64,000 nucleotides of DNA, taken from Lepisosteus oculatus. Taxonomy: Eukaryota; Chordata; Actinopteri; Semionotiformes; Lepisosteidae. The first letter of the stretch is position 1, and every line of letters begins with the position of its first letter. Positions 2,807-62,200 of this stretch are shown here, piece after piece. The stretch covers positions 7,304,501-7,368,500 of the forward strand of contig NC_090714.1 in the NCBI RefSeq assembly GCF_040954835.1. The letters run 5' to 3'. The position numbers and the translations under genes were made by a program. The notes under the pieces are model-generated. The model saw nothing but the letters and a program-made list of their open reading frames with translations, ran no database searches and was not told the DNA's origin.

Positions 2807-5420
2807 AGAAATCCAGGCACAGGAGGCGCTTCAGAATGGGCAGCTGGGGGCGGGGGAGGGCATCCCTGATCTCCAGCCTGGAGTCCTGGCGAGCCAGGCC
2901 ATGATCGAAAAGACGCTCACCGAGGACCCCAGGTGGCAGGGTAAGAGACTGCAGCCTCACTGCCAATCGGTTTGTTGACAAGATCAGTCAACTGCTAGCA
3001 CGGTGTTTTTTATTGACCAGTTTTCTTATATACATTTTATTTTTACTTTGCCAGACTGGAATTTTAAGTCTGCTTTGTGTTTTATTGTAGTTTGACTTTG
3101 TCTTTTAATGTCTGTATTTTTAAGCACCTTCGTGGTTTTTCTTCAGTTGGCCGAATGGCAGCAGGTTCACAGTCATGGTATCTATTGTAAGCTTTTAGCA
3201 CTTTATCCAGTTTTTGGATCTCCTGCGATCAGAATTCCATGAGAACATGCTGAGGACACACAAGCAACACAAGCAGACTCCCAATGCAGCAGATAATTGT
3301 GAAATCAAACTCCCTTGCCAGAAATATATTCCCTTCTCTGTGTTGTATGTTCCAAACACACAAGAGGCATCTAAGCAAATAGGAATACAATGGTTATTTT
3401 ACACCAATTCTTCCTGCCTGTGACAGCAACAAAGGAAAATTTCAGTACTTCATTATCCAACAGCATTACATTCATCAGGTGTGAATTTAGTTGTGCATTT
3501 GTTTCTTTTGCTTTTCATGTCATGGAGACACTGCCATCTAGTGGACACACTAAATATATTAGAGCCCTTTTCAGGCAGTGTACAAATAGTTTAATGTTTC
3601 TGTCCTGGACTTTATATCAAGCTGATAGTCAGCACTACAGTGTACATTTTTACATCGGTCTGGTTAGTCATGCAAGGAAAAGGGCAGCTGGATGTTGGAA
3701 AACCATGATTTTAAGTTCCTGACATATCTTTCCTTTTATTTTTTTTGGAGTATGTAAAACCCAAAGATGGGTTGTCACTCCACTATGTGCTGAAAGCTGC
3801 TCTTGACTGGGCAAGGTGTTTATTTTCCACAGATACCAACTTTGTTCTTGCTAACTACAAGACAGACCAGTGCACCAAGCCCCCCCGTCTCTGCAGACAA
3901 GGGTACGCCTGTCCACATTACCACAACAGCCGGGACCGCCGACGAAATCCGAGGAAATTCAAGTACAGGTCGGAAACGTGGAGCCAGCTTGCTTTTTTAC
4001 AGCGTTATCGCGATGTTTACTTTTGACGTACAGCCATGCTGGTTTAATCTGGTTGGCCAACCATGCGGGTGGTGTTCACACCTTCAGAATCAGAGTTATT
4101 TTTTAACAATGCTGATTAAAGACAATAATAAGATTAGAGAGCTTTTGTGTGGGACTGTTTTGTCTAATGTGCTTTTTTATAAACTAAACTGCTTGTTTAA
4201 AAAAAAAAGTAATTATTTATTTGGGCAATACCTTTGCCCAAAGTGACTTACATTTGCACCCATTTATACAGCTGGGAAGTTTACTGGGGCAGTTCATATA
4301 TAATGGTACTTGCTCAAGGGTTACAGCAGCAGTGACTTCTCTGGGAATCAAACCCACAGTTACGAGTCCAGAACTATGAGCCCTGCTCCACACTTACTGC
4401 TTAAGATCTGTCTGCTGCAGCCGTCAAGCTGTGGTAAGGATCTGAAAGTAACCAGCTGTGTTTTTCTCTCATAGTTTCTCAGAACATTTTCTAAAAAATA
4501 CGATACAATGGCTCTGTGGTCTACTATTTTGTTACTGTGGCTACATTGCTTGTGCATTCTTGACTTCATCCTAGCATGCCTTGGTTTCAGAGTGATCGGA
4601 TTAGGCTAGACGTGTAAAATGTCAGTATTGTCAGTATAGAGCTCACACAGGGGGTCAACAAGGCCTCCTGCATGGTGATTGACAGTGGGTGTTGTGTATT
4701 TTCGAGGCATCAGAACTCATTTCTGGGGACTTGATTGCAGGTCCACTCCCTGTCCCAACGTGAAGCATGGAGACGAGTGGGGTGAACCTTCGAAGTGCGA
4801 CAGTGGCGACAGCTGTCAGTATTGCCATTCACGCACAGAGCAGCAGTTCCACCCAGAGGTAAGCTGCTTAAAGCCTCCACCCGTACACGAATAGGAGCGA
4901 GCAGGCTCACAACTGGCCACCCACTGAAGCTCAGCAAGGTCAGCCTGGCCAGTACCTGGATAGGAGACCTCCTGGGAAAGCTAAGATTGCTGCAGGGAGA
5001 GGTGTTAGACCACAGGGTGAGTGCCCCCTACTGGCCCACTATGTGTGGGTCCTAATGCCCCAGTATAGTGACAGGTACAGTATACTGTAAAAAAGGAGCT
5101 GTCTTTAGGATGAAGCATAAAATTGAAAAACTCTCTATGGTCGTTAAAAATCCCAGGGTTCTTCTTGAAGAGTAGGGGTGTTACCTTGGCATCTTGGCCA
5201 AATTTCCCCCTGGCCTTTACCAATCATAGCCTCCTAATAATCCCCATCTCTGAACTGGCTTCATCACTCTGGTCTCCTCCACACTGACAGCCGGTGTGTG
5301 GGGAGTGTACTGGCGCACTATGGCTGCTGTCGCATCATCCAGGTGGGCTGCACACTGGTGGTGGTGGAGGGGAGTCCCCATTACCTGTAAAGCACTTTGA
5401 GTGGAGTGTCCAGAAAGTTG

Positions 5421-8400: not shown

Positions 8401-11400
8401 AAATAGGCTCCTTACTCCCTAGTCTCTGTAGTAAGAACTTCGAAAGGGTTCTGGGTAACAGCGTCAGCTCTGAGGCAGAGTACAGCTGAAATGTTATTTT
8501 ATGTTCAGGACAGTTGGGTAGAGCTGTATGAAACGATTATTCAGGTGGTTTTTCTTTTAAGAGCAGGTTGGAACAATCCCTTTAGAGACGATTATTAGTA
8601 TTTCATTTTCTTTTTTAGACCAAAAAGAAGGTGTTCCTTCACAATTCATTTTTTTTTTGTTATAATTGCCCAAAGAACAGTTTTCGATTTAAATATTCCT
8701 TCGCACTTGATGGAGGTACAAACTTTCCCCTAACTCTCATTAACAAACACATTTGGTGCAGACAGTTTTTGCTCAGCCGAAAACACTTCTGTAGCCTATC
8801 GCAGCACGACGGCTTCAGTCCAGACGCAAATAAGCTCATGGACCCAGAAGGCTGACTTGGCCGGCTCTCCTGGGACATGCCACAGCTGCACAGGGCCTTA
8901 CAGGAGAGTCAGTCTGGCACAGGGGGAGTGATGCATCCATCACTGATGGCGCTGTCACCCGCCAGGCGATACAAGCTCACTCTTGAAGACTGGAGCTTGC
9001 CCCCGGCACTCTGCCTTTTGCCACACCTCTTAGTCACACTGGACTGATGGCGTAATGTTCCACCCAGCTGGTGATGTCCAGACTGTCGGGCTCTGCCCCT
9101 CACTTTTATTGGGAGAGGCACTCCGGATCCCCAGACCCGCCTTTCTGTCCCTACCACACCTGGCCTGCATTATCAGATCATTTCATCCAGCTCTACTGAA
9201 AGGGAGCCCACTGGCTTTTACTAGAGAGGTGGCTTTGCTCTCATATGTTTTAGGAGGTGTTCCGGTGAATCTAATGCACAGGATTCTGAATGCGTGTGTA
9301 TCCTTCTTCGGCTAGTTTTTCAATTTTAACCTCTGCAAGTCGCTGTGACGTTTGTGATTGGATTTATGCGAAATGAAACCGATGAACCGAGTGTACATCT
9401 CAAAGCACATGGTAGTGTTGATTTGTCTGTCTTTTTTAAGTTGTTTGGTTCTCGTTTGTCAGTTTTGGTTATAAATAGAAATCTAGAAATCACGTATTTG
9501 ACCTGCCCTCCCAAAGCCCAGCTCTTTAAGCTTCACTGTTCTTTTTCACTCTTTAACGGGAATTTTCTATTTTCCGCCTAACCGTTTTAGAATCGCCACT
9601 CGTTAACCGGCACAGCTCGCCTGCACACCCCCGACACTGTGTGCACGCACGCTCGTCCGACACGCCCCCCCCCCCGGACTCGCAGCAGGGAGAGCAGCAC
9701 CTGGAGGAGTGGTGCATCTCTCGCTGAAATGTCTTCAAACTCTAAGTTATTGGCTGTTCCCTACCAAGAGGTGCCCCAGCCACCTTCAGTCCACCCAGCT
9801 GGAGCATCACTCAGCCACCTGGGTGCCTTTGAGTTGGACTGGGCTGCAGTACTCCTTATTGTTTTTCTCCATCACTGAGAAGCGCCGGTACAGTGATATC
9901 TAGGAGACCAATCTACTGTCTGTCCAAACGTTTTCAGCTGCAACTTACTCCACTAGAGTGTGTCTAGTGTTTAGCTCAGAGACATTGCACAAGTAAAAAA
10001 ACAAAACTTGTTTAAAAGATGTTGAAACGTTGCCCATCTTTGCAGATCCCCTGTTTGCTATTAAGAGTCATCGCTAACCTTTTCAACCAGAATCCACAGC
10101 GTTAGTTTGCCTATTAACCTTAAAAAGGCTGGGATTGGAAGAGTAGGTCACCTATTAAAAAGATGCAGTTATTGCCTCAACGGTGCAGGTCGTTATCGTT
10201 CCTGTGTTTGCTGGCTAATTGCAGGCCTGAGTCGTTCATGTCTGTTGTGCTGTTTTGGTTTGTTGGCATGTGTCTCATGAAATCACGTCGTCTTCCTCAT
10301 CCTCCAAAGTCTCATCTGGCACACAGGGGAATGAGGAATGCAGAATACTTCTTCAGGTGTAACTTTGATCATGCCAAATGGCACTTTAGAGCTGAATACA
10401 TTTAATTTCAGTTTGGGTTGATGATTGCTGTGTGAGTTGTGTCATGACTTGGAAAGGTCATCTCAGGTTGCCCTTTTTCAGTATTCTGAATGCAGGTGTG
10501 GGGTTCAGATTCATATTTATTGTAGCTTATGAATCACTCAGGATATAATTTCCTAACATTCACTGCACAGTTTGCCTTCACAACTTTGGTTACTGTTTTC
10601 TAGGCGAAAAATCTGAAGAGCCACCCAGTGGATGGTATTCAAAAACCAGTGGACCAAGAGAAGCAGGTGCACTTCATTTTGTTAATGGCGCAATTTTGTA
10701 TTTGGATCTGGCAGTGGATTAAATGAGCAGCTTCAGAAAATGTATGAGGGTGGGGAAGAAAAGCTCAAAGGAATTCAATGGAGATGTATAGGAAAATCGT
10801 GATAGTCTTCAGTTCAAACTGGGAAATGTAATTCTAGTTACTGGATGGCTATGCTTAGCCTGGTGTTGAAGCTGTGTAGTTCTCATTAGGCCACACTAGA
10901 GGGCTGCATATGAACACAACCAATTCAGTTCTTTTCAAATGCAGATGTGAAGCAAATACTGCTAGACCTCCTTAGTTTTAGAGCTTTTAAAAGAGGATGT
11001 CTTCAGTATGGCCTCAGTTGTATCACCAGTTATATCTTTAATATCATCAAATATCAGTTATCATATTTATAATTAGTTAGATATTAAAAGCAGCAGAGTT
11101 TGCACAGCTTGTGAGAGAGGCAGCAGTAGTTCAAATCCCAAGAAGGGCGCCGCTGTGAAAGCAGGAAAATAAAATTTGGAGGCTTTTATGTCCTGATCAC
11201 CAGGTGAGACTAACCGTTGCCCTTTTCCTGTTCGCAGAACCTCATTAGTGTTTTTTCAGCGGTCAACCCGCTGGCGTCCAGTATAACATCCAGTATAACG
11301 TCAAGCCTGGCCTCCAGCATCGGCTCCGACAGCTCGTCCCCAACCACTCTGTCCACAATGAACGCGAAAGCAACCCCCTTCTACCCTGGCAGCAACACAG

Positions 11401-14400
11401 TGGAATCGGTGATCGGTATGGGCAATAGTTGCTCTTTTAATAACAGTAACCTGAATTCACACGCTTCTGCTGCAGGCCAGTGTGAGGATGGGTTGAAAAG
11501 TACCTCTCTTTTATGACCAGCAGATCATTGGTTTATCTTGCTGTAAGTGATACTCTGAGTTGTCTGTCTATACTGTCTGTCTGTCCCTCTCTTACCGTCT
11601 GTCCCTCTGTCCATCTGTCCAGCTGCTTAACCACGTGTGAGCTGCTCAGATGCTGTATCCTGTGCTGAATCATGCACATAAGATGAGAAAATTATCCATG
11701 GCCTGCATTCCCTCTTAGCTGTAGTCAAGCACGTGTGGAGTTTTGGATCTTTGAAAGGCGCCATCTCTAGTTTCTCTAGGCAGGTTGGTGGATGGAGGGT
11801 CTTCTCGAACATTGAGGGAATTGTTAGGATATAATCTAATGGGGTTTTTAAAAACAGAAGGGCTGAACGCCAAAAGAGAGACCAGTTTCAAGTCCTGCAA
11901 TGTTTTGATTGTTTACCCACACTGTTGTAATGGGGACAAAAATCTACACAAACAACCAGATACCATCCACATGTAGCTTCTTGTAATTCAGAATCACCCA
12001 TGTTATCCAACATTTAATTTAGCAATTTTTCCTAATCGGTGGTCTTGTCTTTGTTTGGCTTATGATTTTTTTATTTTTTCGAGAGGTGCAGAATTCAGTT
12101 GTTTCTGTCAAGCTGGGGGAGATTCCTACATGTCTGGAAATTTGCGGCAGCTAGAGAGGAACTTGAAAATCGGGAGGGAGTTTTCATTGCAATAACAATG
12201 GACGGGGTGTGTGTATAGGGGGGGGTGCAATTCTAAAAATAGCAACAGTGCATTAGGGCAGGGAGCGTGTCTGAGTGCATACCTGACTCTTTGGTGCTGC
12301 TAGGCAGCTGTGGTCACATGACTGGGGTTTGTGATTAGCCGGTGCATGTGCAAGGGGTCTGTGTCTGGAGGGGTGTTTGGAGAGAGAGGGGGAGGGAGGG
12401 AGGGAGAGAGAGAGACAGAGCTCACTGCTGCAGACAGTGAGTCAGCACTTAGATGGGCGGATACTTTCTCCCTTTTACAACTCCATAGCTTTCTGGCAGT
12501 GAGGTAGGGTGATTTTACTGGGGATTCACAAATAGAGTAAAAAAAGGTTGCGGTACAGAAGTGCTTAGTCAACAGACACATTGAGTGTTTACAGAATAGA
12601 GATTGTTTTAAAATGTGCAATTTCTAAGATGTGTACGCGAGTATGTTCAGAATTTATGTTGGGATACCTGAGAGTTTTGTGCTTTGCTGCTGCATTTGTA
12701 TGTTTTCTTGAAAATCTAGCTGTTGTCAGCCTTGTTAAAATGCAGTATTCCATAAGTACTGCGATTGGAAATGATTCTGTACAGTGATGCTGTGTGCATG
12801 TGCTCGATGCACAGTGCTGCACTCACTTCTAATACCGAATGTCATGAATTAACAAGAAGTGCTCTCTGTCTGTGCCGGAGCCAGTGGATCAGTGACACTG
12901 CAGGGTAGCCCTTAGGAATGGGTTGGGAGAAGTGAAGTACTGGATCTCTAATTTCGGAGAACAGGAGGCAGCGGAGAACAAAGTACAGGGTTATGTTGCA
13001 GATGCTGAGTCACCAGTGTTACTACTCTGTTAGTTGCGTTAGTGACATCTGGATCAGCAACATGGGGCGAAGGACCTCATAATGGGATCTGAGGGTGTTT
13101 TTCTGTTTTAACTGTGATTATTTAACCCATGCAAGGTCTTGGCATTCCAAGTTCAGTTTTTATTAAGTGTTCAGTACAAGAGGGCTGTTGTGCAAAGTGT
13201 GACCTTTGAAAAGAAGCACACATCTTGGCAAAGAGATCCGTAGCTCTGTGTGCTCCCAAGCCTGGGCAGTTTCAGTATTTCCTCTTTGCACATAGCCAGG
13301 CACCCGACTACTCACACAGCTCTAGTTGCTATAGCGATGCCCTCTGCTCTGCGTCATTCTTTTGGAATTAATAAGCTCTGCTCTGCGTTGATTTCTTTGG
13401 GGAGATCTGTCCAGTGTGAATTGGAATTCTGCCGTTTTAACGGAACATATGGAACTGCGCTTGCTACTGTTTGCAAGTTAAAAATCACAGTGAAATACAC
13501 GTTTAGTTGTTGTGTAGGTCCTGAGACAGTGTCTTTTTCCTCTGGTTTTAGGCCTGGTTTGAGGCCTTTTATAAGCAACTTAATGAATTTAACTTGTGCT
13601 TTTAAAGTCTATTTTTGTGTTTGTTTTTTAAAAAGCTTTCTGTAATTTGTAATGATTTGAGAGCACAGTAACAGGTAATTTTTCTCAATTCTTTGCTTAT
13701 TTTGCAAACTGTGAAAAGTGGAAAGAAAATTTGAGTTTTGCTAAAGTTGTTTAAATCTTAAAAAGTTTTCATCTAACTTTTCCTTCATCAGAGACTCCGA
13801 ATCCTGGCTGTACGAGTATTTTTCATAGTAAGAGTGAGCCTCAATTTAATAAGTGTATACATACACAGACTTTAAAGAATATTGCTCCTTCTCACCAAGT
13901 TTCTCTGTAGTATAACATATTTATATTTTTAAATAAAATCTTATTTGTAAAAACTGTACTTTTGACTACAGTAAACCTTTGCTGATACTTGATGGTTTTA
14001 CTTTGCAGGTTCTGCACTTGACCTGAACTTTGGCGACATTAACGTCACTCTTGATAAGGAACTGGAAGAAGAAGAGAATAGTGATCTTGGCTTAACAAGT
14101 AAGCAGACTGGTGTGAGTGAGCTGAAAAAGATTGGTGGGGTCTTTCAATTTAGGCCCCGGGCTGTAGAGTCTAGGGGTGGTCTAGGGTGCTGGTTTGAGT
14201 TTACCGGGTTACCCTAATCATTCTGGCACAGCTGCTTGATTTGTCACTCGATGCTGACCCCTATGGGTTTCCAGTCGCCTGTGACGCAGCGGTGGTGAAC
14301 GAGAGTCGTCCAGTGCCCTAGCCCAGCTGTTGTTGCAATGGGAGTACGTGCTTGGTCAGACCTGTGCGCGATCTTGAAGTCTGCGTTGCTCCAGTAGTGG

Positions 14401-27169: not shown

Positions 27170-27260
27170 GCTCTGATTGGGCGGATCTAAGGGCTGCCGC
27201 CATGCCATTGGTTCCCTGGCTGCCACCTCCCTCCTCCCCCCCCTGCAGAACTGCCTATGC
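27170..27260 (+). promoter_or_regulatory. CCAAT/GC-box promoter of the ATF4-like gene
   Basis: Two inverted CCAAT boxes (ATTGG at 27176-27180 and 27207-27211) and an overlapping GC box GGGCGG (27179-27184) precede the predicted first exon. No TATA box is evident. The transcription start is not determined. ATGs at 27202 and 27257 would be extra upstream starts if transcription began earlier. Confidence 0.55.
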
Positions 27261-27316
27261 ACAGCGGCTGTGAGCTGTCAGTGTCTTTGGGTTGGGCTCA
27301 GAGGCTGCACCCTGCC

Positions 27317-27334
27317 ATGGACTCCTCAATTTAG
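27317..27334 (+). CDS. uORF1 of the ATF4-like gene (5 codons)
   Basis: ATG GAC TCC TCA ATT TAG sits in a strong start context (GCCATGG) in the predicted leader exon. It ends 46 nt before the second uORF. By analogy with ATF4 and ATF5, a short first uORF lets ribosomes resume scanning. If transcription starts upstream of 27257, this frame is extended in phase to 25 codons. Confidence 0.55.
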   Translation: MDSSI

Positions 27335-27380
27335 ACTCTCCAGCGCCTGCTGACTCCCGCAGCCCAGCACACAGCCAAAC

Positions 27381-28059
27381 ATGGAGTGAGTATACTTGGG
27401 CACCGCTAAGGAGCTAAACAGCTGAGAAAAGTTTGCGTACCAATTTTAATGTTGCGTTCCGTGTTTGTGGTACATAGAAGTTCACATTTTGCTTGATGCA
27501 TTTCTCTTTTTTTAAAAAAGGCAGTGATTAATGTATATCTTTGCAATGTTTTGAGCTTCTTCTGCACTCTAAAAGTGGAAGAATTTGCTCGCCTTTCTAA
27601 CTGCATGGTGCTTTGTGTTGTCTGCTTATAGTACAGGCTAAAGACAGACTGAGTATGTGGTGGGGGGGCTGGGGAATGAGCAGGCTGGTGATTGCACAGC
27701 ACATTGCAATGCAGGTTCAGCACTCTGCCCTTGCCAGATTTTGGCCATTAACAAGCTCTCAGCTGCTTGAAACCAATGAAATAATACGCAAAACAGCTGA
27801 GGCTCTTGAAGAACGCTTGGCTACTGTTCCGGCTCATTAATTAGGTTGCTATTTCTCATAGTGATCTTAATTACCCCCCCATTCCCCTATCCTCTGCAGG
27901 CTTCAAGATGGAACCGCTGCTTGTTCGGTAACACAGCCCCTGCCAGAGAAAAGACCCCTGCAAGCCCCGGAGACGACCGCCCTGAGTGCTGGGGATGGAT
28001 TGGAGCGAGTTGCTGCAGCTGGGGAGCCTGTATCCCGAACTTGCTTCACTGACCGCTGA
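27381..28059 (+). CDS. uORF2 of the ATF4-like gene, spliced, overlapping the main ORF
   Basis: The ATG at 27381 (AAACATGG, strong context) sits five bases before a consensus donor (ATGGA|GTGAGT). Joining 27381-27385 to 27900-28059, after the acceptor CCTCTGCAG, gives a 54-codon frame that ends with TGA at 28057-28059. The main start at 27995 lies inside it in another frame, giving a 65-nt overlap. This matches the inhibitory uORF2 of ATF4 and ATF5, which is about 59 codons and also overlaps the main start. The splice is predicted, not observed. Confidence 0.65.
27908..27931 (+). CDS. Minor 7-codon uORF in the second leader exon
   Basis: ATG GAA CCG ... CGG TAA lies in the same frame as the main coding sequence but stops 63 nt before it. 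It is nested in uORF2 in another frame. It could act as a further scanning checkpoint. Confidence 0.35.
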   Translation: MEPLLVR

Positions 28060-31000
28060 GCCTGACCTGCCCGTGTGCGCCGAGCTGAAGGAGGAGAGGC
28101 AACTGGGAGGAAGCGGCGGCTTCGTGCTCTGTTCTGACACCCAAAGTAGGTCCCTTGTCTTTACAGTTTATGCAAAGGCTGAGCACCATGCAGGTCGCTG
28201 TAGCAGCAAGGGCAGAGACAGTCATTTCACTTATTTCATTGCACCACCTGGTCCTTGCCCATCTCTTTCTAGTAATATCTTTGCTGTTTCAGCTGTTCCT
28301 TGAGCGCTGAAGGGTTTAGGATTTCTGTTTAGTTCCGCATTTATTTAATTAAACCAGCTAAAGCTTAAAATCTTTTTTTAAAAACATTATCCGATCAGTT
28401 GGGTGTTTTTTTTTAACACTTTTTATACCCACGACAACACCTACAAGCGTGTCTCCTCTGACGCAGCCACCAGGGACGATCACTCGTCGTTTGACGTGCC
28501 GCGAGCTCCACAGCGCCATGCAGGATAGTTAGCGCTGATTGGAGGAGAAGTGAGACTTGCGCTCGCATCAGTGCAAGCTCATTGGCAGCTGTAAGATTCC
28601 AGGTGTCACTCGTGCGGCAGAAAGCTGAGGTCCCGGTCTGTCTTAAGTTCATTAACCACACTGATTGCAACTTGAGAGTCGGGACTCAAGACCATTCTAA
28701 CGGATAGTCTCTCCCCCACAAACACGACTAGAAAAGAGTTGAGTGTGCAGGTTTGTACCTGCCCTCTATTCCTTAATCGCAATAGGAACAATCCTTGGAT
28801 CAAACCTTCGTGTAGCTCCCTGTGTTATGTCTCTGCCCTCCATGTTTGCTTCCATGCACATTAGTAGTGGTACTGCCTCGGAAGGGCAGGCAGGGAGGCA
28901 AAGTAAAGCTCATCCATCACTTTTAGATTGCCTTTAGTCTCTTTGTGTAAAACAGATAAAGAAAAAGTTTGTGAACCCTTTGGCATTACCTGGATTTCTG
29001 CATCAATTACTCATAAAAATGGGGTCTGATCTTCAAATAAGTCACAATAATAGATAAACACAATCTGCTTAAACTAATAACACACAAACAATTGTACTTC
29101 TTGTCAGTTGTCGTGGAAACTTTTACGGTTAGAATAAAGGAGCCACAGAAAGTATTCTCGATTACTTAGTAAGGTCTTTATTCATATTGCAATATGGGAA
29201 AAAACCATCACCCATTTGTACAGAGAAGTAAAAGCTGATTCAAAAGCAAGCTGGGAGAGCCCTTGTTTTATATCTTTTTTTTAAGCTGATGCAACACTTC
29301 AAGGACAGGCAAAACAGTAATTTTCCATTCCTTATAGGTTTTTGCTTTAAGCAAAGAATAGCAGTTATTCAAATAGTTTCTCATACTCCCTTCTTCAAGC
29401 AGCAGAGATAAACATTATTAAAACATCCTGTGCCCTTGACGAGTTGGGTGCTATCACACTTTGTTCTGAGTATCCAGCTGCTTCTGCAGCACAGCTCTGT
29501 CCGTAAACAACATTTTTAGGATAAAACACTTTTTCTCAGTAACTTTCCATTACACAGTACTGAACACATCGTTTAAACAGTCACAGTCCAGGCTGGAAAA
29601 AGTATGTGAACCCTTGTATTTAGTAACTGGTAGAACCTCCTTTAGCATCAGTAACCTCCACCAAATGTTTCCTGTAGCTGTTGATGAGACTTGCACAACG
29701 GTTAGGAGGAATTTTAGACCAGTCCTCCTTACAAAACTGTTTTAGTTCATTGACATTTCAGGGATTCCTAGGAATTCTGGGATTCCTTGCGTGAACAGCT
29801 CTCTTCAGGTCGTGCCACAGCATCTCAATTGGGTTGAGGTCTGGACTCTGACTTGGCCATTCCAGAACACGAATCTTCTTCTGTTTAAGCCATTCTGTTG
29901 TTGATTTACTCCTTTGCTTCGGGTCATTGTCTTGTTGCATCACTCAACCTTTTTCAAGCTTCAGGTGACAGACTGCTACCTTGACATTCTCCTGTAAAAT
30001 TTCTTGATACAATTTTGAATCCATTGTTCCCTCTAATTCTCCCAGAAGCATTATGGAACATCCAGGTGGTCGCTTGCAAACTTGAGACGTGCAGCAATGT
30101 TGTTTTTGGAGAGCAGTGGTTTCCTCTGTGGTGTCCTTCCATTAACACCATTCGTGTTCAGTGTTTTTCTTATAGTGGGCACATGAACGGAGACTTTGGC
30201 AAGTTCAAGAGATTCCTGCAGGTCCTTTGCTGTTACCCTAGGGTTCTTTTTCACCTCCTTCAGCATTGCACGCTGCACTCTTGCCCTGATCTTTGCAGGA
30301 CAGCCACTCCTAGGGAGAGTACCAACAGCTTACTGTGGATTGATGAACACCCAGGCCTTTATAAATGCTTTTGTAACCTTTGCCAGCTTTATGCATCACT
30401 ACAGTTCTTCTTCTGCATGGTTCACATGAACAGCTCTTTCTTGAGAAGAGCAGACTCTGTCAGTAACCAACCTTTGTGTGTCTTTTTTATAGTGCAGGGC
30501 ACCTCCAGCCCACAACGCCAATCTCATCTCATTGATTGAAACGCCTAACTCCAATTAGCTTTTGGAGACGTCACTAGCTAGAAGTTAACATACTTTTTCC
30601 AACCTAGACTGTGAATGTTTAAACAATGTGTTCAGTATTGACAAGAAGAAGTACAATTGTTTGTGTGTTATTAGTTTAAGCAGATTTTTTGTCTGTTATT
30701 GTGACTTACTGTAAGATCAGACCACATTTGTATGAGTAATTAATGCAGAAGTCCAGGTAATTCCAAAGGGCTCACAAACTTTTTCTTGCAACTGTATTTG
30801 ATGATGAGGAAAGTGTTTGTGATATGTTCATAATTAATTGTTTGGAAGCATTGTTAAAAGAAATATCTCCTCTTTTGTTTTTGAATAAGACTCTTGACAA
30901 ACCACATAAGGACTTTTCTCTTTTGCAGGCATTTCCGAGATGGAATGGATGGGAGAGAAGATGGATGTACATCTCTTGGACAGTCTGATCGAGGATGCCC

Positions 31001-31749
31001 CAGTGACCTCAAAAGATCTGCTACACGTGGTTGAGAAGACTTTGAAATTCCAGGCTGATGTCACATCCACTACACAGAGTTCAGCTGCAACTCATGTTCA
31101 GCCTAAAGGAGGAGGGCGGCTCCAGGGCCCATCGGTCTCAAGCGATCAAGTGGCGCCCTGTACACCTCCTCTATCCCCACACTTTGCCACACAGCCTGCC
31201 ACGGTGGCCTCTTCCCATGCCAGCTGGTTCTCTGCAGGCCAGCCGACAGAAGTTCTGGAACTTCCCTATGAATCCGTGTTGCTGCTGGATGGTTTAGTTG
31301 CTCCCTCTGGCAGTGAGGATAATGGGATGGATTCGGAGTGCGATGATGCTAAATTGGTGACCATCCCTGGAGCTGTGCCTTGGCAAGAGCTCCCGGAGCC
31401 TCCCGCCAACATCCCACTCTGCATCATGAGCCAAAACGGCTCGCTGGTGGAGAAGGCCGCGGTGCCCTCCTCTTCCTCCCCGGGCTCCAAGTGCACTGTC
31501 AACCGAAAGCACAGGAAGAAGGAGCAGAACAAAAACGCAGCCACGAGGTACCGGGAGAAGAAGAGAGCACAGAGGGCGGCACTGGAAGTCGAGCTGCTCC
31601 AGCTGGAGGACACAAACAGAGAGCTGAAGGAGAAGGTGGCCTCACTGGCCACAGAGATCCAGTGCCTGGAAGCACTGTTAGAGGAGGTACAGAGCGCTGG
31701 AGAGGAGAAGAGTGTGGTGTTTTCCAAACCACAGCAGACCAAGAGCTGA
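27995..31749 (+). CDS. ATF4-like bZIP transcription factor
   Basis: Coding exons 27995-28145 and 30929-31749 total 972 nt and encode 323 residues. An acidic N-terminal half contains [18 protein letters not shown], recalling the DWMLEKMD segment of ATF4. The basic region (residues about 242-264, [20 protein letters not shown]) keeps the N-x7-R signature at N251/R259. A five-leucine zipper follows at residues 269, 276, 283, 290 and 297. The basic region is nearer ATF4 (EQNKTAATRYR) than ATF5 (DQNKSAALRYR), while NRELKE in the zipper recalls ATF5. I see no DSGxxS phosphodegron like that of ATF4. The likely role is a stress-responsive DNA-binding dimeriser in the nucleus. The ATG at 27995 is chosen because it opens the frame conserved through the intron; the internal Met at 30940 is an alternative. 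Confidence 0.9.
28953..30794 (-). mobile_element. Tc1/mariner-like transposon (degenerate) in the ATF4-like intron
   Basis: Long inverted terminal repeats are seen at 28953-29108 and 30640-30794 (for example AAAGTTTGTGAACCCTTTGG against its complement near 30765). Broken transposase lies on the minus strand: an N-terminal helix-turn-helix-like part at about 30051-30278 and the [12 protein letters not shown] catalytic-region motif within 29758-29943. TA flanks the right end at 30795; the left TA is mutated. Excluding the nested LTR and its duplicated site, the element is about 1.39 kb. Confidence 0.9.
29109..29554 (-). mobile_element. Solo LTR nested in Tc1
   Basis: A 446-bp insert starts TGTCGTGG and ends CATTACA, and is flanked by the direct repeat CAGT (29105-29108 and 29555-29558). 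It interrupts the left terminal repeat of the Tc1. On the minus strand it has a TATAAAA-type box and, further on, AATAAA (TTTATT at plus 29169-29174), the order expected of an LTR. No internal retroelement sequence remains. The parent family was not identified. Confidence 0.75.
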
Positions 31750-41447: not shown

Positions 41448-50747
<9,300 letters not shown>

Positions 50748-53200
50748 CCACGCGTTATTCAGCAGTAAAGACTCTGTTGTGTTCGTGTCTAATTTGCAAT
50801 TTAGAATGTTTTGCGATGGAAAAAGGCAAGTTTTCTGTATCAAATCTTGTGCAGCTTAAGACAGTCAAGAAAAGCATTTTTGCTTGTTGTCAGGAATCTC
50901 TGATACCTTTTTTTTCTTATCATTCTAGTTAGACAGTCCCCCTTATTTTTGTCTGTATTCATTCAGAAATTCAAATATACTCAAAACTGTTATTTCGGAC
51001 CTTCAGGAATAAATCTTGAAGTAATCCTGGTAAGTATGAAGAGAACAAAAACTGTTTAGAGATGAGTCAAAGACACAGACATGTCAGGAAAAATATTTCC
51101 TGACAAAGAGCTTCCAGGGTTTGCGAAAAGGTTGCTAGAGATCAAACATTTCAGGTGGAATACAAAGATCTTTTATCAGGTGGAGTCTGACTTTTGTTTT
51201 GGTGTTTTTCAACTCCTCCGTTTATTGCTTATGTACGTTGAATAAAAATGTGGTTACAAACAAAAGGGGGCTGGTTGGTCAATCTAGTTTGTGTGGGTGC
51301 TAGTAGCTAATTGATTGGAGGACTTCATTCCTGAGGTTAGGGGGAGGGTTAAGAAATTAGGGTATCATCTTTAACAGCATGACTGGGTTGCCTGTTCCAG
51401 AGGCCTTTGTGTGTCTTATAAAACCCTTGGTTTGAAAAGACCTTGGGGAAAAAAAGGTTGTAGCTGAGCTGATAATTAGAGCAATATAGTTGATGGAGCT
51501 TAAATTTCCCTAGGAACAACAACATCCAAGACTTAAAAGCTTTGCGAATGCTTGGATTAATTTGCAGAGAGGTTTGGTTTTAATGAGGAAGCTTGAACCC
51601 CTTCAGAGAGGAGTGAACCAAGATGTAGCTGCAAGGTGGAGATGGGACAAAGGAGAGATGCTTGAGACAAATGGCGAAGGAGGTGTTTGTGATCGCTAGA
51701 TAGTGCTTATTTCTGTAATGGTTGTGGTTAGGAACAGCTGTGTGGGATTGACTCCCGAACTACAGTTAATAAGTTCCATTTAAATGAAAAACAAGGCACT
51801 GCTGTCTCACTCTTACCGGGTATGAGGCTGTGGTGACACTGCGTGTTAATTAGATGTGTCTGTGTTGTACTGTGTGTCACTCTAAGTGCACAGACCTTGA
51901 ACGCAGCATGAATCATGATTCACTCGGTGCAAAGTGCACCAAACTGCAGTACCTGTGCCAGAACTTGCGTATAATTAAAATCATCTAATGCTCTCGTTAA
52001 TCCAGTTTACACAGGAAAATGTTTTTCTTTTTGTTGGAAAGTAGAACAGTGGAAATGGGGTTAAAATTATATTGATATGACGCTGTTAATAAATAATTTA
52101 TCTACTGATAAATTGTTAGTATCTAACTGAAATCATTGAGGCGGAAACCAAACAGACCTCTGAGAATATTGGCTTGGTATCATTGGTTCTTGTCATGCCT
52201 TGAGTTTTTTCAGTGCCTCACTGGTTTTTCGGTCCTTGTGGCCTCAAGTAGTGTGTGATAAACCAAAGCACCTGCACTCTGATGACCCATTGATTGGAGG
52301 ACAAGCTAACCTCCAAGCTTTAAGAGGAATACTGCTCGAGAGCTGACATTGAGGGCAGCTTTGATCGCCAGTGGAAATGTAATGCTTTAAAACAAACCCA
52401 TCAAATAACATCCTCGAGTCAAGGACACGCAAAAGGCCATTTTAAATAAATTATGCTTTTGAGTGCAACAGTTACAAAAACATACGGTCAGTACCTTACA
52501 AGGACAAATATTTAGTATCTCTGTGTGCCACATTTACATCAAACTAATACAGATTTATCTTAAAAGGACCATCACAGTCAGGTAGAGTCTGTAAAGACAG
52601 CATTAAAATAGAAACTGCATTACATTAGCACACAAGAAAACCAACCTTTGAAGCAAATTGCTTTTACAGGGTACAAATATGTTTTAAATGACAGCTATTT
52701 ACAGCCTTATCTTTTATATTACATAAAACACTTCTTCTCAGCAGGCTGTTCTCCAACATTGTCTCGTCTCTTCTCTCCTGCTTCCCTGGTCATTACAAGA
52801 ATGTCAAAACACGCAAGAGCACGATTCGTTGCTTGGAATTAGCAGATGAAGTTCTGATTAGACTGCAAGGAAAACCAGCTGTGTGACACTGAAAAGTCTG
52901 TTGAAGACTAAAATGTTCATTGCTGCATTTATCAATAACTTTAAAACACCAAAGTACTTTTTCCAAATAACATGGAAAACAGAAAAAAACAACCAGGAGA
53001 ATTGTAATAGGTTACACTTTATAATGAGGCTTTTTAACATAAACTGGAGGATACTAGAAATTGTCATCTGATAACCTCATATTTGGCACCAGAACACCTT
53101 TGAGCTCAGAGGAAATATAAATGTCTGATTGACTTTCCAGTGAGGCTTAGTTATTATAAAGTGTTACCTTTTAATGGTTTAAACTTATTTCTGAAAATAG
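50748..53200. other. Convergent 3' spacer between tsr3 and baiap3
   Basis: tsr3 (rightwards) and baiap3 (leftwards) converge here. A tsr3 poly(A) signal AATAAA is at 51008-51013. For baiap3, TTTAAT near 53170 would give the variant signal ATTAAA on its strand. No gene was seen between. Confidence 0.55.
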
Positions 53201-56200
53201 TTACTCTTCTTCAGCCATAGACTTTTCAATCTCTTTTAGCTTTTTTACAAACTCCTGGGCTTCTCTGTCCCCTGTTCGAGCCTCCAGCATCTTCAGGATT
53301 GGTTTATCTGTGGTGGGAATGAAAAAAATGACACTTGTGGATAATGTGATGGAAGATATTCTGAAACAATTTAAAATATACAGTATTGCAGTATATATAT
53401 TGCAATGCAGTACAATAGCAGACTCTAATATTGACACTTGACATCTTAAGTCACTTTGGACTCTTCATTGACTTGGAAGAATTACCATTGACAAGTGAAG
53501 TCAAACACTACTCCTCTTCAGTTAGCAGCTTCCTTGCTTCTGCAAAGCGTGTTGTCAGAGCTGTCAGAGCAGTCTCTAAGACCCTCGAATGCTGAACCAC
53601 CACTGCCAGCATTCGTCAAGCCCCCTTTGCTGCAAGGCCTGCCCCCTTACCACAGGGGTCCTGGAGCTGTCTCATCTTACATCATGACAGCTGTCGCACT
53701 GGATGGAAGCATGGAAGCTCCCTTTGGCCTGGGGGAGGCAGGTCACCTGTTTACAGTGCCAGGGAGCAGGCAGTTAGCCCATGGGGGGGGAAAAAGGATT
53801 AATTCTTACCACTGGGTTTGGGCCGAGCCAGCTGAAGAATCAGGGGTGGTATGTTCTTGCCTCCTCCTGATTTGTCTGGTCCACAGAAGTCACTGAGGGG
53901 AGCAATGGCTTCCCCAGCAAAGTCATTGGTGGACAGCCAGTCGTGGTCCATGACGGTGAAGGTAACGCAGGCACACCTCTTCTTGTACTGCTCTGGAGCA
54001 ACATGACTGGGGAGACACAGATACCCATCAGCCCCGGACAGAAGGAGGGTCCAGCAACCTCGAGCGCTGATTCGCACAAAGCAGCCCAACCCTGGAATCA
54101 ACGCCTCAGCTTCAGAGCAACATCTCCAGAATTTAGCACTTGAGGGGTTCTGGCTACTAAAATACTGACTCATTTGCATTGCACCTTCAAATCATGCTAA
54201 AATCAGCTTAATGATACAAGAATTCAGTATAATTTTATTCACATGAAGGAGTACAAACTGATAATTTGTTCCCATCATTGGTGTACAATAGCCAGGCTTA
54301 CTTTAACAGGTTACCTTTGCAATGTCATTCTTCTTAATATTAAAATAAGAAACCATTCTACATTCCCGTTTCTGGAGGGCATGAAATAAAATCATAGTAT
54401 ATATTTATTCCTCAGTACCTTCTTCTTTACGAAATATAGACCTAGAGATCTGTTTAAAGAGTTACATATGGGAAAAAAAACGGGCCAGGAACAGATTGGT
54501 CTCCTTACAAGTGGAACAGCTCATCAAAGACAGGGTGAAGGGTCTTTGCTTTGACTTGAGTCCGTTGACTTTTTGTTGTGGGGAACAAATGATGGGGACA
54601 CAGTTCCACGATGACAAATGGGTCGCTTAGACCTGGGGAGCAAGCAGAAAGTAAGGCTGTTTAAGCTGAGGTTCAGGAAAGGCTGTGCTTGTGGTGCTTG
54701 TTCTCACACAACAGGCTGTTTTAGTTTCAGCTGAGACACAGAAGTTGTTTCACTCATTCAACACCATAATATGCTTGCCCAGTGTCAGTCAGTCAGTATG
54801 CACCTGTTTTTAAGATACTGTGCTTAGCATAATGCAGAAGGTTTTCTTTATTGAAATACAGCGTTACCCATATTATAAGGTGACCCCTTATAGTGCAGAC
54901 TCAGCTGTAACTCAGTTCAGGAAGTGATGCCTGATTTTCCCCACACAAACCTCAGGGTTCCAGATAGACAGGACAAGGCACGACCAACAGCAAAATCCTT
55001 AATCATCTCTGTTGAAATGAAACCGTGCAGCGGACAGCATTAAAAAAAGTGAAACTCTGGCAAGTGTTTCAAAAGGCCCGCACAGCAGAAAGCTGCACTG
55101 TGTAGGTGGCTAAAAGACGAAGGAAAATAAGGCTTTCTTGGTAAGGCTGTCTCCAAAGAGAGCTGCTCTCAGGAAGAGAAGTGCTGCACTGAAGACAGTG
55201 CATTAAGACCGTTTTGTTTGCTTGGCTTCTGTAGGCATGTCAGCAGGGAGTCCTAGTCTATACCTCAAGCACAGGTCGTACAATCTAACAAGCACTTAGG
55301 AGATCACCCTAGCCATGGCGAGTGTGATGCTTTCAGGAGAGCCCACTGGGTGGGTTCCCATATGTGGGGGAGTAAAATCTGCAGCTTGTGAATTTGCAAA
55401 ATAGGATCAAAGTTCCTTTTTTTTCTTGTTATAAATAGGTCTTTAATCCATTTTGCTTCCAAGACATGAATATTCCCATCGGTACCTCCAAGTTCTTTTG
55501 GTGATATTATTTATGCTATGAAACATTTTCCACATGTGTGTTCTTGCCACTTGCAAAACACACTGACCTTTCACTGTAAAGGGTTTGTGCCAAAACACAT
55601 GATATGTTTGCAATTTGAAATGAGGTATTTGCACCTTTTGAATAATAACATGGCAGGGAGGAATAAAAATGCCCTGAATTATAATTTTCTCCCCACTTCT
55701 TTTGAAGGCTATATAAAAGACGTGTATCTGGCGCTGTGACTGACTAAATTAAGGGATTTGCAGCTGCTTTAAAAATACCAACAGATGCTTTTGTTTGTTA
55801 ATGGAGTTAATGCATCTCAGGGTATAATATACATATATTAAATTACAGATATATTATACATTAAGATTTTAAAATAGAACATATATACAGTGGTGTGAAA
55901 AAGTAAGTACATGAAAAGGATTGTCTTTTTTTACATTTTTGGATAAAAGCATATTTGATCGTCATTTCAACAATACTGATAGATAAAGGTGATCGAATTT
56001 TAAAAAATGACATTGAAAAATCCCATTTTGCACTCATTTGTACTATTTAAATAAACAAAATTCAATTTCCTTGTACAGAAAAAGTAGTACACCCCTACCT
56101 TTATCATTGGATCAAATGCCAAAAATTAGAATATGGTGCACCAAAACAGGTGCAAATGATTAGAACATCATTAGAGAGTAACGTGGAGGGCACTGCCTTA

Positions 56201-59200
56201 GACAGTATAAACATCAGAAAACTGTGGTTTGGTTTGGTCTTAGCAATTGAGGTGTGTGGGTGGCTACATCATGCCAAGATCAAAAGAGCTCTCTGAGGCC
56301 CTCAGAAGAAAGATTGTTGATGCCTAAGAGTCTGGGAAGGGTTTTAAAGCCATTTCCAAGCAATTTGTAGTCCATCACTCCATTGTCCCAAAAATCATCT
56401 ACAAATGGAGAAATTTCAAACTAGTGGCAACCTATCCAGGCCAGGTCGTTTCAGCAAATTCAGCCCAAGAGCTGACCAAAAGATGCTGCAGGAAGTCTCC
56501 AAAAACCCCAGGATAACATCAAGGGATTTACAGGCAAGTCTTGCCTCACTCAATGTCAAAGTGCATGAGGCAACCATCCGAAAGAGAACGCACAAGGAAG
56601 GAAGAAGTCTCCGTTCTCAAAAAAGAATATAGATGCACGACTGAAGTTTGCCAGACAACACCTAGGTGAAGATCAGGACTATTGGAACAATGTGCTCTGG
56701 ATGGATGAGACAAAGGTAGAGCTGTTTGGCCACAATGCAAGACATCATGTCTGGTGAAAACCAAAAACTGCCTTTGAACAATAGAACCTCATACCAACTT
56801 TAAAGCATGGTGATGAAGGCATTATGGTTTGGGGCTGCTTTTCGGCCTCACGGCCTGGCCAGCATGCCATCATAGAGTCAACCAGGAATTCCACATTGTA
56901 CCAGAGAGTACTTGAGGAGAATGTGAGGCCATCTGTCAAAAACATCACACAGCTGAAGGAGTTCTGTATGGAGTGGGCAAAAAGGTCTCCAAGGCGATGT
57001 AGGAGACTGATAAACAATTACAAGAAATGCCTGCAAGAAGTGATTTCTGCTAAAGGGGGCAACACCAGCTGCTAAAGCAAGGGTGTGTACTTATTTTTTC
57101 CAAAGCAGACAATTGCATTTCTGACTTTTTTTTGTTATTTGTTAAATTAGATCACCTTTATCTATCAATATTGTTGAAATGAAGATCAAATATCCATACG
57201 TGCAAATATGTTAAAAAAAACATACACCTTTCCATGGGGTGTACTTACAGTAATTTTTCACAGCACTGGATGTTCACTTGGTAGAAAAGCTGTCATCACA
57301 TAGATAACATAGGTAAGATAAAAAGTGTCCAGTTTAATGTCAATACTAAAGCTGCTGAATGCAGTCAGGCCCTGGTTGCCTTTTTCCTCTGTAAAGAATG
57401 GTGCAGTAGTGGCTTTTTGTCTTTCACCTGCTTACCATTGGCATCCAAGGCAATTAGGTCTGCAGCATGCAGGATTTCAACTGTCAGCCTCTGTTCAGAG
57501 GCCTCGTAGTAGCACTTAACACTGATCCGGCCAAATTTACTGTGCTTTAGCATTCTCTGGAAAACAGAAAAAAGACACAGTTCCCCAGCCTTATAAACAG
57601 TCTTATAAACATAAAGATAGTCAAAAAAAGACTTCTGGGATGGGTGCTATCATATCTTTGCAGTTTTTCCATGAGAAGAGTTGAAAAGATCTAAGTATCA
57701 TACATCAAAGGTGTATCTAAGATCATTATTAAATCAGAATTTGAAAATCCTTTTATGTACGAAACTTAAATCGGCGCACCAGGAAGAAAAAAATGTATTT
57801 TTGAAAATGTATGTGTTCACTTTTTCCCATTAATTTAAAGGGAAAATACATCCACCTTGTACAAGGCCATACATCTTAAGCACCACATAATATTTTTTTC
57901 ATTTATTTATCTGAAAGATTCATTTATTTCATATTATTAACAGTATAATTATTGTAATAATGAATATTCATATATTTTTTATATATTTTTTGTGTGATAA
58001 AATCCTTTACACCTACCAAAGGTGGAGTCTGTTGCAGTTAATAAAAACGGCAAACTTAAAATAATAAAGCAGTTGTTGAAAAATAGAATTGTATTATTAT
58101 CCCAATACAATGTGGTGCTGAAGAGGAGAGGGAAGTTTCAAAAAGCTGTCGCACAACTTGCCAAACCTCTTGATCATGGAAATATCTCTGCTGGCTTCTT
58201 CCTACTGTTTTCACAAACTATAAGTCATGACAGAAAGGGTGTGATTTTGTTCAACCCCACCTCCACTGTGAAGTAATGGTACCTGATGTGCAATTTTCTC
58301 CAAGAAGTACTGTTCAATCAGCTCGCTGGATGAACACTTGTTCAGTCTGAGTTCCTCCTCCAGGGCCTGCAGAGACACATGAGTGTCCTTCATTGTGTAT
58401 TTTTGAAAGAGTGTTGTTATAAATGAAGCACAGAAGAAGGTGAAACCAGTCAGGTCACTGGGATCCCTCACTCCCACCTTCAATCTTTGAAAACTCCTAG
58501 AATACAATGACACTTAGAGATGTCTGCTCTGCTCAAACACAAAATGTCTAAATTAATGGGACAGCCATGCTTTTTCTACATTCATACAGCCATCTGTTCT
58601 CAGTGTTATTTCTGAGCATGTAGACGGGGAGTCCCTGCACATTAGATACAAATAAATCTCTACCCAAAAAGTTACGGTTTGGATTACATTTAGCAAAATA
58701 GATAAGGTCGCACTATGTAGATGATTCATGCACTTACAGTGCAGTCCGTAAGTATTTTGACACTGACAATTTTTGTTGTTTTGGCTCTGTACTCCAACAC
58801 TTTGGATTTGAAATGAAACAATGGCTATGTGGTTAAAGTGCAGAATGTCAGCTTTAATTCGAGGATATTTACGTCTATATCGGGTGAACCATATAGGAAT
58901 ATGACTCTCAGTGGTCATTAAAGATCCCCGGGCATTTCTCGATAAGAGTAGGGAGTTATCTTGGTGTCCGGGCCAAATTCCCCCCCTCGGCCTTTACCGT
59001 GGCATCGAATTTTTCCCCATGTATGATTTTTATACATAGTCCTCCCATTTTAGGAGACCTAAAGTAATTGGACAGTTGGCTGCTCAGCTGTTTCTTGGCC
59101 AGCTGTGTGTTGTTGTATCATTAGTTCATGCACAAGAGAGCTAACAAGGGTCTAGAGTTGATTCTAGATGTGGCATTTGCATCTGGAGTCTGTTGCTGTT

Positions 59201-62200
59201 ATCTCTCAACATAAGGACCAAAGAAGTGTTAATGCCATTAAAGCATGCCAACATGAGGCTGAAAAATCAGAATAAATCAATCAGAGACATAGCTAAAACA
59301 TTAGGTGTGTCAAAATCAACTGTTTGGTACATTTTTAAGAAGCAAGAACACACTGGTGAGCTTAGCAATGGCGAACGACCTAATAGACCATGGAAGACCA
59401 CAGTAGTGGTTGACCGAAGAATACTTTTTGACTTGAACAGATCAAGAACACTCCAGGATGTAGGCATATACAGCAGGAAGATGTGTCAAAGACTGCCAGA
59501 AAGAGACCAATACACCAGCATAACCTCAGAGGGTTCACCACAAAATGCAAACCACTGGTAAGCCTCAAGAACAGAAAAGCTAGGTTACAGTTTGCTTAAA
59601 AGTACAGAAAAAAGCCTGTAGAGTTCTGGGACAAAGTCTTATGAACAGATAAGACAAAGATTTACCTGTATCAGAGTGATGGAAAGAGGAAAGTATGGAG
59701 AGAAAATGGAACTGCTCATGATCCAAAGCATACCACCTCATCTGTGAAACATGGTGAAGGTGGTGTCATGGCCTGGGCATGTATGGCTGAGAGTGGAACT
59801 GGCTCACTTGTCTTTATTGATGATGTGATTGCGGACAGCAGCAGGATGAATTCTGACGTGTACAGAAGCATCTTATCTGCTCAGATCCAACCAAATGCCT
59901 CAAAACTCACTGGACGGCGTTTCACCTTGCAACAGGACAATGACCCCAAACAGGGCCGAAAAGTGGAATGTTCTTGACTGGCCAAGTCAATCAACCAACC
60001 TGAATCCCACTGAGCACGCATTTTACTTACTGAAGAGAAGACAGAAAGCAAAAAGCCCCCGAAACAAGCAGGAACTGAAAATGGCTGAATTACAGGCCTG
60101 GAAGAGCATCACCAGGTGATGTCTATGAGTCACAGACTTCAGGCAGTTATCGATTGCAAAGAAACTGCAACCAAGTACTAATTAGACAATTTTATTTACG
60201 ACTATATTAATGTGTCCAATTACTTTTGGTTCCCTGAAATGGGGGAACTATGTATAAAAAGGGCTGTGATTCCTATATGGTTCACCCAATATAGACGTAA
60301 ATACCCTTGAATTAAAGCTGACATTCTGCAATTTAACCTCATAGTCATTGCTTTATTTCAAATCCGATGTGCTGGAGTACGGAGCCAAAACAACAAAAAA
60401 TGTGTCACTGTCCAAATACTTACGGACTGCACCATATGTTATGTTTTTTTGTTGTGAAGCAGTCATGGCTTGTCCTGCAGAACCACAATTTATGTATATA
60501 AAAAACGGAATTCAAAGAAGAGCAGGGCATACAAAACGTAACTAATTCGGTGCAAGTGCTGTTTGTGTACATTGGCTGATGTACACCAAGTGTTAGGTAG
60601 GCTCTTGAATTCCAAATAACCATTCCTGAATTATCCATAACTGGTGTATAATTTTGTTTCCTGAATAAAAGTCATATTCCTGACTGAGGCTTTTTAGCAA
60701 TTACATTTTTTTTGTCTGGAAAAATAAGGATATCCAGTGTAGTGCAGATTATAACTCATTGTTTCCTCTTAGCCCTTCACAGCAGTTTTCCAGGTTTTGT
60801 AAATGCTTACTTTGTATTGCTCATTCCTGAGATTGTCCAGTGCCAAGCCCTCACCCTCAGCATGGAAAAACTCAACCAGAACCTGGGAGAAGCACAATGT
60901 TTCAGTGTTTCATTGACAGGTGAAGGACACTGTACATTATTACACGTATTACTGTAAATTCTTAAAGCTCAGTAGAACTTGGCTTAATCGTAGAGAAACC
61001 AAAGGAACAAGTAATACGTTTATTCCATGCTGAAAAGAGAAGAAAGAAAACACAACGTTTTGGCGGTGGAGCCTTCTTCAAGTGTGGGAGGCTCCACAGC
61101 CAAAAAGGTTGCATTTTCTTTCTTCTCTTTTCAGCATGGAATAAACCTATCACTTGTTCCCTTGCAGCCTAAGCATGCTGATGCAGCCACCCACCTGAAC
61201 TAACTTAATCTTACAGATTTGCTTTAGCTTGCCATTTAGACAATTTAGTATTTGATCTTCACAATCCACTTCAGAAGAAATCCAGTGGTTTTCAATCCAA
61301 TGATGATACTCAGGTTACATTTCTCACAGGCACTCAATCTTGGAAGGTCAGGCCTGTGCACATTCATAAACTCAGCAGGTAACCAGCCCAGCAGGATTAT
61401 CTAAATAAGGACGCTACAATGCCCTATAGCCACTTCCTGTAACACATCGAGCCCTAACAGCTAATGCCCACTGCGCTTATCCACTTAGAGGCTGCAAGCT
61501 GTGATTTTGTTGGAAGTTTTTTTTTTGTCCTTTGCATATTGGTATTAACACATCAACATTACAGACTGTGCCCCACTAATTGCTCCAGCAAATTACTGTC
61601 AGGGCCGTGATGAAGGTTTGATTTGGTCAGTTCCGCAGTTCAGACCGCAGAGAGCTGAAGTGCGGCAACCAATTGTGATCAACACAATTTGGAAGACAGG
61701 AAGAGAATTGTAAAGCTTTAAATGTCCAGTGGCGAAGAGAAACAATTTGCCTGTCTCTCAGCTGACACAAAGCGCCATTCATGGAAAGGACAATAAAGGA
61801 AAACCCCAAGGGGAGTTTCACAAAGCCATTCCAGCACTTTGCCAGCTTCTTGTTCACAACAGTATCTCGGCAGGCTTCGTCTTGCTGGTTTAACACAATG
61901 ACAGCTGTGGACGGGAAGGCGCGTGTTAGTCAAGATCAGCTTGGCAGCTTGTATGATGGGAGAGCTGAAACTGCGCTCTCGGAGCAGGGAAGGGTGCAGC
62001 TGCGGCCAGCGCGCAACCTACCTCGACCGTGTAGTGGAACCTCCCGTAGAACTCCACAGACACGCCTCGGTTTTCAGCCACTGTGTCGAAGATCAGCCTG
62101 AGCAGCAGCTGCCACAGGCCCTGCAGCACCCTGCCAGACAGGAAGGTGAACAGGGTTGACAGGAATATACCACCAGGGAGCGAACTGCCCCACTGCGCAC

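Follow-up and report, generated by a model that had tools for sequence, protein, structure and literature searches.

The translation of ATF4 and ATF5 is explained by an accepted model in which ribosomes terminate at a short first upstream open reading frame (uORF1), scan onward, and reinitiate at a second one if the ternary complex is abundant, or further on at the main ATG if it is scarce, as laid out in excerpts of two papers (PMC3738444, PMC10187673). The second frame of the ATF4 leader, uORF2, overlaps the main start out of frame by 83 nt (excerpt of PMC5666893), and zebrafish atf4a and atf4b reporters fit the model when the starts of uORF1 or uORF2 are mutated (excerpt of PMC8547220). Here we describe a leader in the genome of Lepisosteus oculatus that is arranged in the same way. 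It lies in a stretch of 64,000 nt (C19:7304501-7368500), referred to below as the window, and probably belongs to a third bZIP gene of the ATF4/ATF5 family that keeps the ancestral ATF4-type delayed-reinitiation switch, judging from the comparison of sequences.

The leader and its predicted first intron

The leader of the window gene is read on the plus strand, as are all features of this gene given below. uORF1 occupies positions 27317..27334 (ATG GAC TCC TCA ATT TAG, five codons, peptide MDSSI) and its start stands in the good context GCCATGG. After a gap of 46 nt from its stop, the ATG of uORF2 follows at 27381, and the five bases ATGGA (27381..27385) are the last ones of the predicted exon 1, directly ahead of a donor with the word GTGAGTATA; from 27386 the intron reads GTGAGTATAC. 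The coordinates of the original prediction proved exact to the base. The predicted intron 1 (27386..27899, 514 nt) contains nine ATGs and ends with the acceptor CCTCTGCAG, so that the boundary to exon 2 at 27900 reads CCTCTGCAG/G. When the predicted junction 27385/27900 is made, the remainder of uORF2 runs through 27900..28059, which gives a frame of 54 codons in total that overlaps the main frame by 65 nt and stands in relative frame +1 to the main ATG at 27995. This frame, too, had been predicted, and recomputation returned the same lengths. Unspliced, uORF2 is reduced to ATG GAG TGA.

The splice sites were ranked with generic scores. The acceptor at 27900 is the best of the 38 AGs from intron 1 to just past the main ATG, scoring 8.75 against 3.85 for the next, and the donor at 27386 ranks fourth among 46 GTs. 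On the exon side of this donor, the start codon with its +4 G takes the place of the usual AG, which accounts for the moderate fit to the nine-base consensus. Judging from the sequence of U1, the intron side GTGAGTAT may pair with U1 beyond the bases that are scored.

Several elements of the leader had been overlooked at first. An extra upstream AUG at 27908, in the context AAGATGG and, once the leader is spliced, 13 nt past the AUG of uORF2, opens a uORF of seven codons (MEPLLVR, 27908..27931) that stops 63 nt short of the main ATG. Upstream of uORF1, an ATG at 27202 opens 23 codons. Another ATG, at 27257, shares the frame of uORF1; if included in the mRNA, it would extend uORF1 at the N-terminal side to 25 codons (27257..27334). 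Just before the first exon there is also an acceptor-like stretch (27222-27249), made up of a pyrimidine run and a CAG ending at 27248, with a score of 9.75. This score is above the 8.75 of the acceptor at 27900, which makes an upstream first exon possible; an exon joined at 27249 would bring in the ATG at 27257 and thereby give the 25-codon form of uORF1. Such a uORF1 would be leaky, because the context of the ATG at 27257 (cctATGC) is weak. How long uORF1 is will hence be decided by the start of transcription or of the first exon. A search for RNA structure between uORF1 and uORF2 (27290-27385) gave no signal, with a z of 0.47, and Rfam had no match at gathering scores within the window.

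Identity of the window gene and its paralogs

The main frame begins with 27995..28145 in the first coding exon, is interrupted by the predicted intron 2 (28146..30928), and continues in the main coding exon (30929..31749), which carries the bZIP domain; the protein has 323 amino acids overall. The domain matches PF00170 with 34.3 bits (cut-off 27.6), and its closest solved relative is the ATF4 chain 1ci6 (1.9e-11). A scan of ten frames of the window against Pfam left six without a match. Tc1-like transposon sequence is found inside intron 2, where a fragment of a Tc1-type transposase lies on the minus strand at 30054-30329 (PF01498, 7.2e-22); other frames that look Tc1-like by eye are at about 44133-44537, 46149-46481, 56348-57075 and 59145-59977. 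The GC skew of the window is raised at 12001-14000 (0.200) and 50001-52000 (0.175), compared with a maximum of 0.113 in the other 2-kb steps.

The protein encoded by exon 3 of the window gene was searched against the 1.2-Gb host genome, and at E <= 0.001 it matched three places, namely the window gene itself, one gene on C12 and one on C26. A query with the bZIP of human ATF5 returned the same three places and a weak fourth one with E = 0.865. This fourth bZIP match is located at C14:41827386-41827508 and shows 34% identity to the ATF5 query. The gene on C12 is ATF4, as it has an ATF4 bZIP and lies ~10 kb from a frame of MIEF1 (MID51; 5.8e-134). In human, too, MIEF1 is a neighbour of ATF4. The gene on C26 is ATF5-like, as 79% of 57 residues aligned to the human ATF5 query are identical, and is called ATF5 in what follows. 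The bZIP of this ATF5 is spread over two open frames (L005 8530-8874, on C26): the residues QNKTAAHR end at 8553 and YRQRKRAELDSL resumes at 8839, which suggests an intron or a frame break within the basic region.

The bZIP of the window gene is identical to that of the genome's ATF4 in 37 of 63 aligned columns and to that of its ATF5 in 32 of 63. In the window gene and in ATF4, intron 2 is in phase 1 and lies shortly before a WM-EK-D motif, which in ATF4 is part of the stretch SGMDWMAEKID; the phase follows from the exon lengths, the main frame taking 151 nt of exon 2 in the window gene and 271 nt in ATF4. The pattern DSG.{2,4}S has no match in the protein of the window gene, whereas ATF4 on C12 has DSGIGS, a motif that we liken to the beta-TrCP degron.

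The neighbours tell the window gene apart from ATF4. On its left is an open frame of UNK, the unkempt-type CCCH finger (3718..4023, plus strand; PF23035 1.4e-24, PDB unkempt 1.3e-21), for which the genome has two loci of this type, on C19 and C9. On its right is a frame on the minus strand (53802..54191) that is taken as UNC13D from a single PDB match to unc-13 homolog D (1.5e-4), the Pfam C2 match being below the cut-off. Since the window gene stands between UNK and the UNC13D-like frame, and the MIEF1 frame is found instead beside the C12 gene, the window gene is a member of the family and not the orthologue of ATF4. In our reading the window gene is the third gene of the family. It probably arose in the genome duplications of early vertebrates. 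This origin, like the absence of the gene from the same place in mammals, rests on the human gene order: UNK and UNC13D adjoin on human 17q25, and no ATF gene is known to separate them.

A start codon at the first donor in three family genes

The leaders of the three genes were compared feature by feature, and the values below are given in the order window gene, ATF4, ATF5. In the ~10 kb around each of the two paralogs, the pattern ATG-NN-GTRAG occurs exactly once on the sense strand, and both occurrences join the second exon in phase. In all three family genes the uORF2 ATG thus stands five bases ahead of a GTGAGTATA donor, the exon/donor boundaries being CCAAACATGGA/GTGAGTATAC, GCAAACATGGC/GTGAGTATAT and GCAAGAATGGA/GTGAGTATAA. 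Each has a short uORF1 (MDSSI with five codons, MAV with three and MAF with three), separated from uORF2 by 46, 78 and 80 nt. uORF2 has 54, 68 and 61 codons, its ATG lies 100, 139 and 100 nt ahead of the main ATG, always in frame +1, and it overlaps the main frame by 65, 68 and 86 nt; its stop is 86, 203 and 59 nt from the end of exon 2. From the stop of uORF1 to the main ATG there are 146, 217 and 180 nt. Intron 1 has a length of 514, 1198 and 1745 nt; its acceptor ranks first among the scored AGs in every case (of 38, 78 and 113), and its donor ranks fourth of 46, seventh of 101 and eighth of 147 scored GTs. An additional AUG at offset 13 from the uORF2 AUG is present in the window gene (seven codons) and in ATF5 (23 codons) but not in ATF4.

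The unspliced forms of uORF2 are ATG-GAG-TGA, ATG-GCG-TGA and ATG-GAG-TGA. It had been claimed that the inhibitory uORF exists only in the spliced transcript of this divergent paralog. The sequence bears this statement out, yet it does so for ATF4 and ATF5 as well, so a uORF2 made by splicing is not special to the window gene. The intron-spanning uORF2 looks like an inherited feature of the family, as far as three genes of one genome can tell. The broader claim, that the leader follows the two-uORF plan of ATF4, stands as regards the layout, which is matched by two family members of the same genome; the translation induced by stress and the junction itself are predictions.

The question then arises how much of this likeness could be due to chance. 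In dinucleotide-shuffled leaders, with guessed leader starts and with any leader counted as a hit in which an overlapping uORF comes after a short one, the two-uORF plan appeared in 295 of 4000 shuffles for the window gene, 249 of 4000 for ATF4 and 697 of 4000 for ATF5 (6-17%). By itself the plan does not exceed chance; the agreement of the boundary with those of the other two genes does. The boundary word ATGGMGTGAGTATA (ATGGM/GTGAGTATA) has 13 matches in the 1.2 Gb, compared with six for the reversed control, and three of the 13 are the family genes. This word was taken from the genes themselves, the weaker pattern ATG-NN-GTRAG having been sought in the paralogs earlier. A longer word, AYATGGMGTGAGTATA, has four matches in the genome and none in the control, and two of the four are the window gene and ATF4. 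We also considered whether a short upstream uORF marks the motif specifically, and rejected this. Such a uORF also precedes five of the ten unrelated copies of the motif (501-base stretches for eight of them and 7-10 kb for two, where long frames were judged by eye), so that uORF1 by itself is weak evidence. Its start context differs: a purine at -3 together with a G at +4 is found for uORF1 in all three family genes, compared with none of the five uORFs before unrelated copies.

The peptide of uORF2 was likewise tried and dismissed as a conserved functional peptide. In local alignments against 1000 shuffles, the observed score was matched by 761 shuffles for the window gene and ATF4, 229 for ATF4 and ATF5, and 20 for the window gene and ATF5, so the likeness is weakly suggestive for this last pair only. 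RNA with intron 1 retained is unlikely as a productive alternative. The intron contains nine ATGs in the window gene, 23 in ATF4 and 35 in ATF5, and with so many of them unspliced leaders would be expected to translate the main frame poorly.

It is tempting to regard ATGGM/GTGAGTATA as a conserved composite, kept since before the three genes separated, in which splicing is coupled to the activity of uORF2. This idea is tentative and in our judgement rather doubtful. If it were true, the inhibitory frame would be carried only by correctly spliced mRNA, unspliced RNA would have a two-codon uORF, and a change in how the donor is used could adjust the response to stress without any involvement of eIF2. 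Selection may have kept start and donor together as a composite; it is simpler to assume that an old intron position was just retained. In the part of the open-licence literature that was searched, no statement was found that uORF2 starts at the donor. Because the exons of the human ATF4 gene are publicly documented, we do not claim the fusion of start and donor as unreported.

Proposed switch, alternatives and comparison with known systems

From what is observed, i.e. the sequence, its frames and distances and the likeness of the three genes, we infer splicing, translation, a response to eIF2 and decay in the following manner. uORF1 would be translated first, and ribosomes would then scan on. 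When the ternary complex is plentiful, they would reinitiate at the uORF2 AUG or at the AUG 13 nt later, and translation of uORF2 would bypass the main start. With eIF2 phosphorylated, both AUGs would be skipped before reloading and translation would start at 27995, 146 nt past the stop of uORF1. As the uORF2 AUG lies on the exon side of the first donor, the inhibitory frame would be put together by splicing. The extra AUG at 27908 would be skipped by the same unloaded ribosomes and should intercept loaded ribosomes that have slipped past uORF2. At rest, translation of uORF2, whose stop precedes the next predicted junction by 86 nt, should expose the mRNA to nonsense-mediated decay (NMD). ATF5 mRNA is reportedly controlled by NMD. 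For NMD, an excerpt of PMC10187673 gives a minimum of 50 nt between the stop of a uORF and an exon junction that follows it; here the distance to the next predicted junction is 86 nt for uORF2 and 51 nt for uORF1. With 46 nt to uORF2 and 146 nt to the main ATG (78 and 217 nt in ATF4, 80 and 180 nt in ATF5), a leakier but working switch is to be expected.

A different reading is that the short spacing and the strong AUG at 27908 block the main start constitutively, stress or not. The gap of 46 nt, which could also leave a switch leaky, is below the spacing of both paralogs, the strong context of the extra AUG could lower the output even in stress, and the protein is divergent and devoid of the DSG-type motif of this genome's ATF4. 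However, a 40S subunit that lacks the ternary complex at the uORF2 AUG should still lack it 13 nt further on, and the extra frame is short, its seven codons ending 63 nt ahead of the main ATG. ATF5 moreover carries such an AUG, likewise at offset 13, and the mammalian ATF5-alpha leader is a known stress switch (excerpt of PMC3738444). We consider constitutive repression unlikely.

The leader might instead be mostly bypassed, either by a transcription start downstream of 27381, which would abolish the switch, or by another first exon joined to 27900. ATF5 has a second transcript with a different leader (excerpt of PMC3738444). But uORF1 and the ATG-donor composite occur in all three family genes, which suggests that this exon is used, and two ATTGG boxes, at 27176-27180 and 27207-27211, lie upstream of uORF1. 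We take these boxes to be NF-Y-type motifs. A bypass is in our view quite unlikely. That the plan has merely arisen by chance in a decaying gene, as the 295 of 4000 shuffles could suggest for a single leader, is highly improbable, as the 323-aa bZIP frame and the exact ATGGM/GTGAGTATA boundary common to the three family genes speak against it and the comparison with the paralogs contradicts it. The delayed-reinitiation switch remains the reading that we prefer.

Judging from its leader, the window gene seems to be under the control of the integrated stress response, as the third member of the family after ATF4 and ATF5, and the start codon of uORF2 and the first donor have stayed fused in three family members of one genome. 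Two questions are opened by this: whether splicing of intron 1 is a part of the switch, and how short the spacing (46 nt here) can become before stress control leaks.

The described systems can now be set beside the window gene. The leader of ATF4 shares with it a short permissive uORF1, an inhibitory uORF2 that overlaps the main frame out of frame and, in the ATF4 of this genome, the ATG-donor composite. Compared with this ATF4, the window gene has a uORF1 of five codons instead of three, a gap of 46 nt instead of 78 nt, the extra AUG at offset 13, and a shorter leader, with 146 nt instead of 217 nt from the uORF1 stop to the main ATG. ATF5-alpha, as seen in the ATF5 of this genome, has in common with it the plan, the composite, the distance of 100 nt between the uORF2 and main ATGs and the AUG at offset 13, but differs in its three-codon uORF1 (MAF), its gap of 80 nt, its overlap of 86 nt and the 23 codons, rather than seven, of its extra uORF. 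Drosophila Xrp1, as described in an excerpt of PMC8514241, is likewise a bZIP stress factor; of its two uORFs, the second overlaps the main frame. Different from the window gene, the uORFs of Xrp1 are long, with 124 and 288 codons (same excerpt), and, unlike the model proposed here, its leader alone is insufficient for induction according to an excerpt of PMC13268129.
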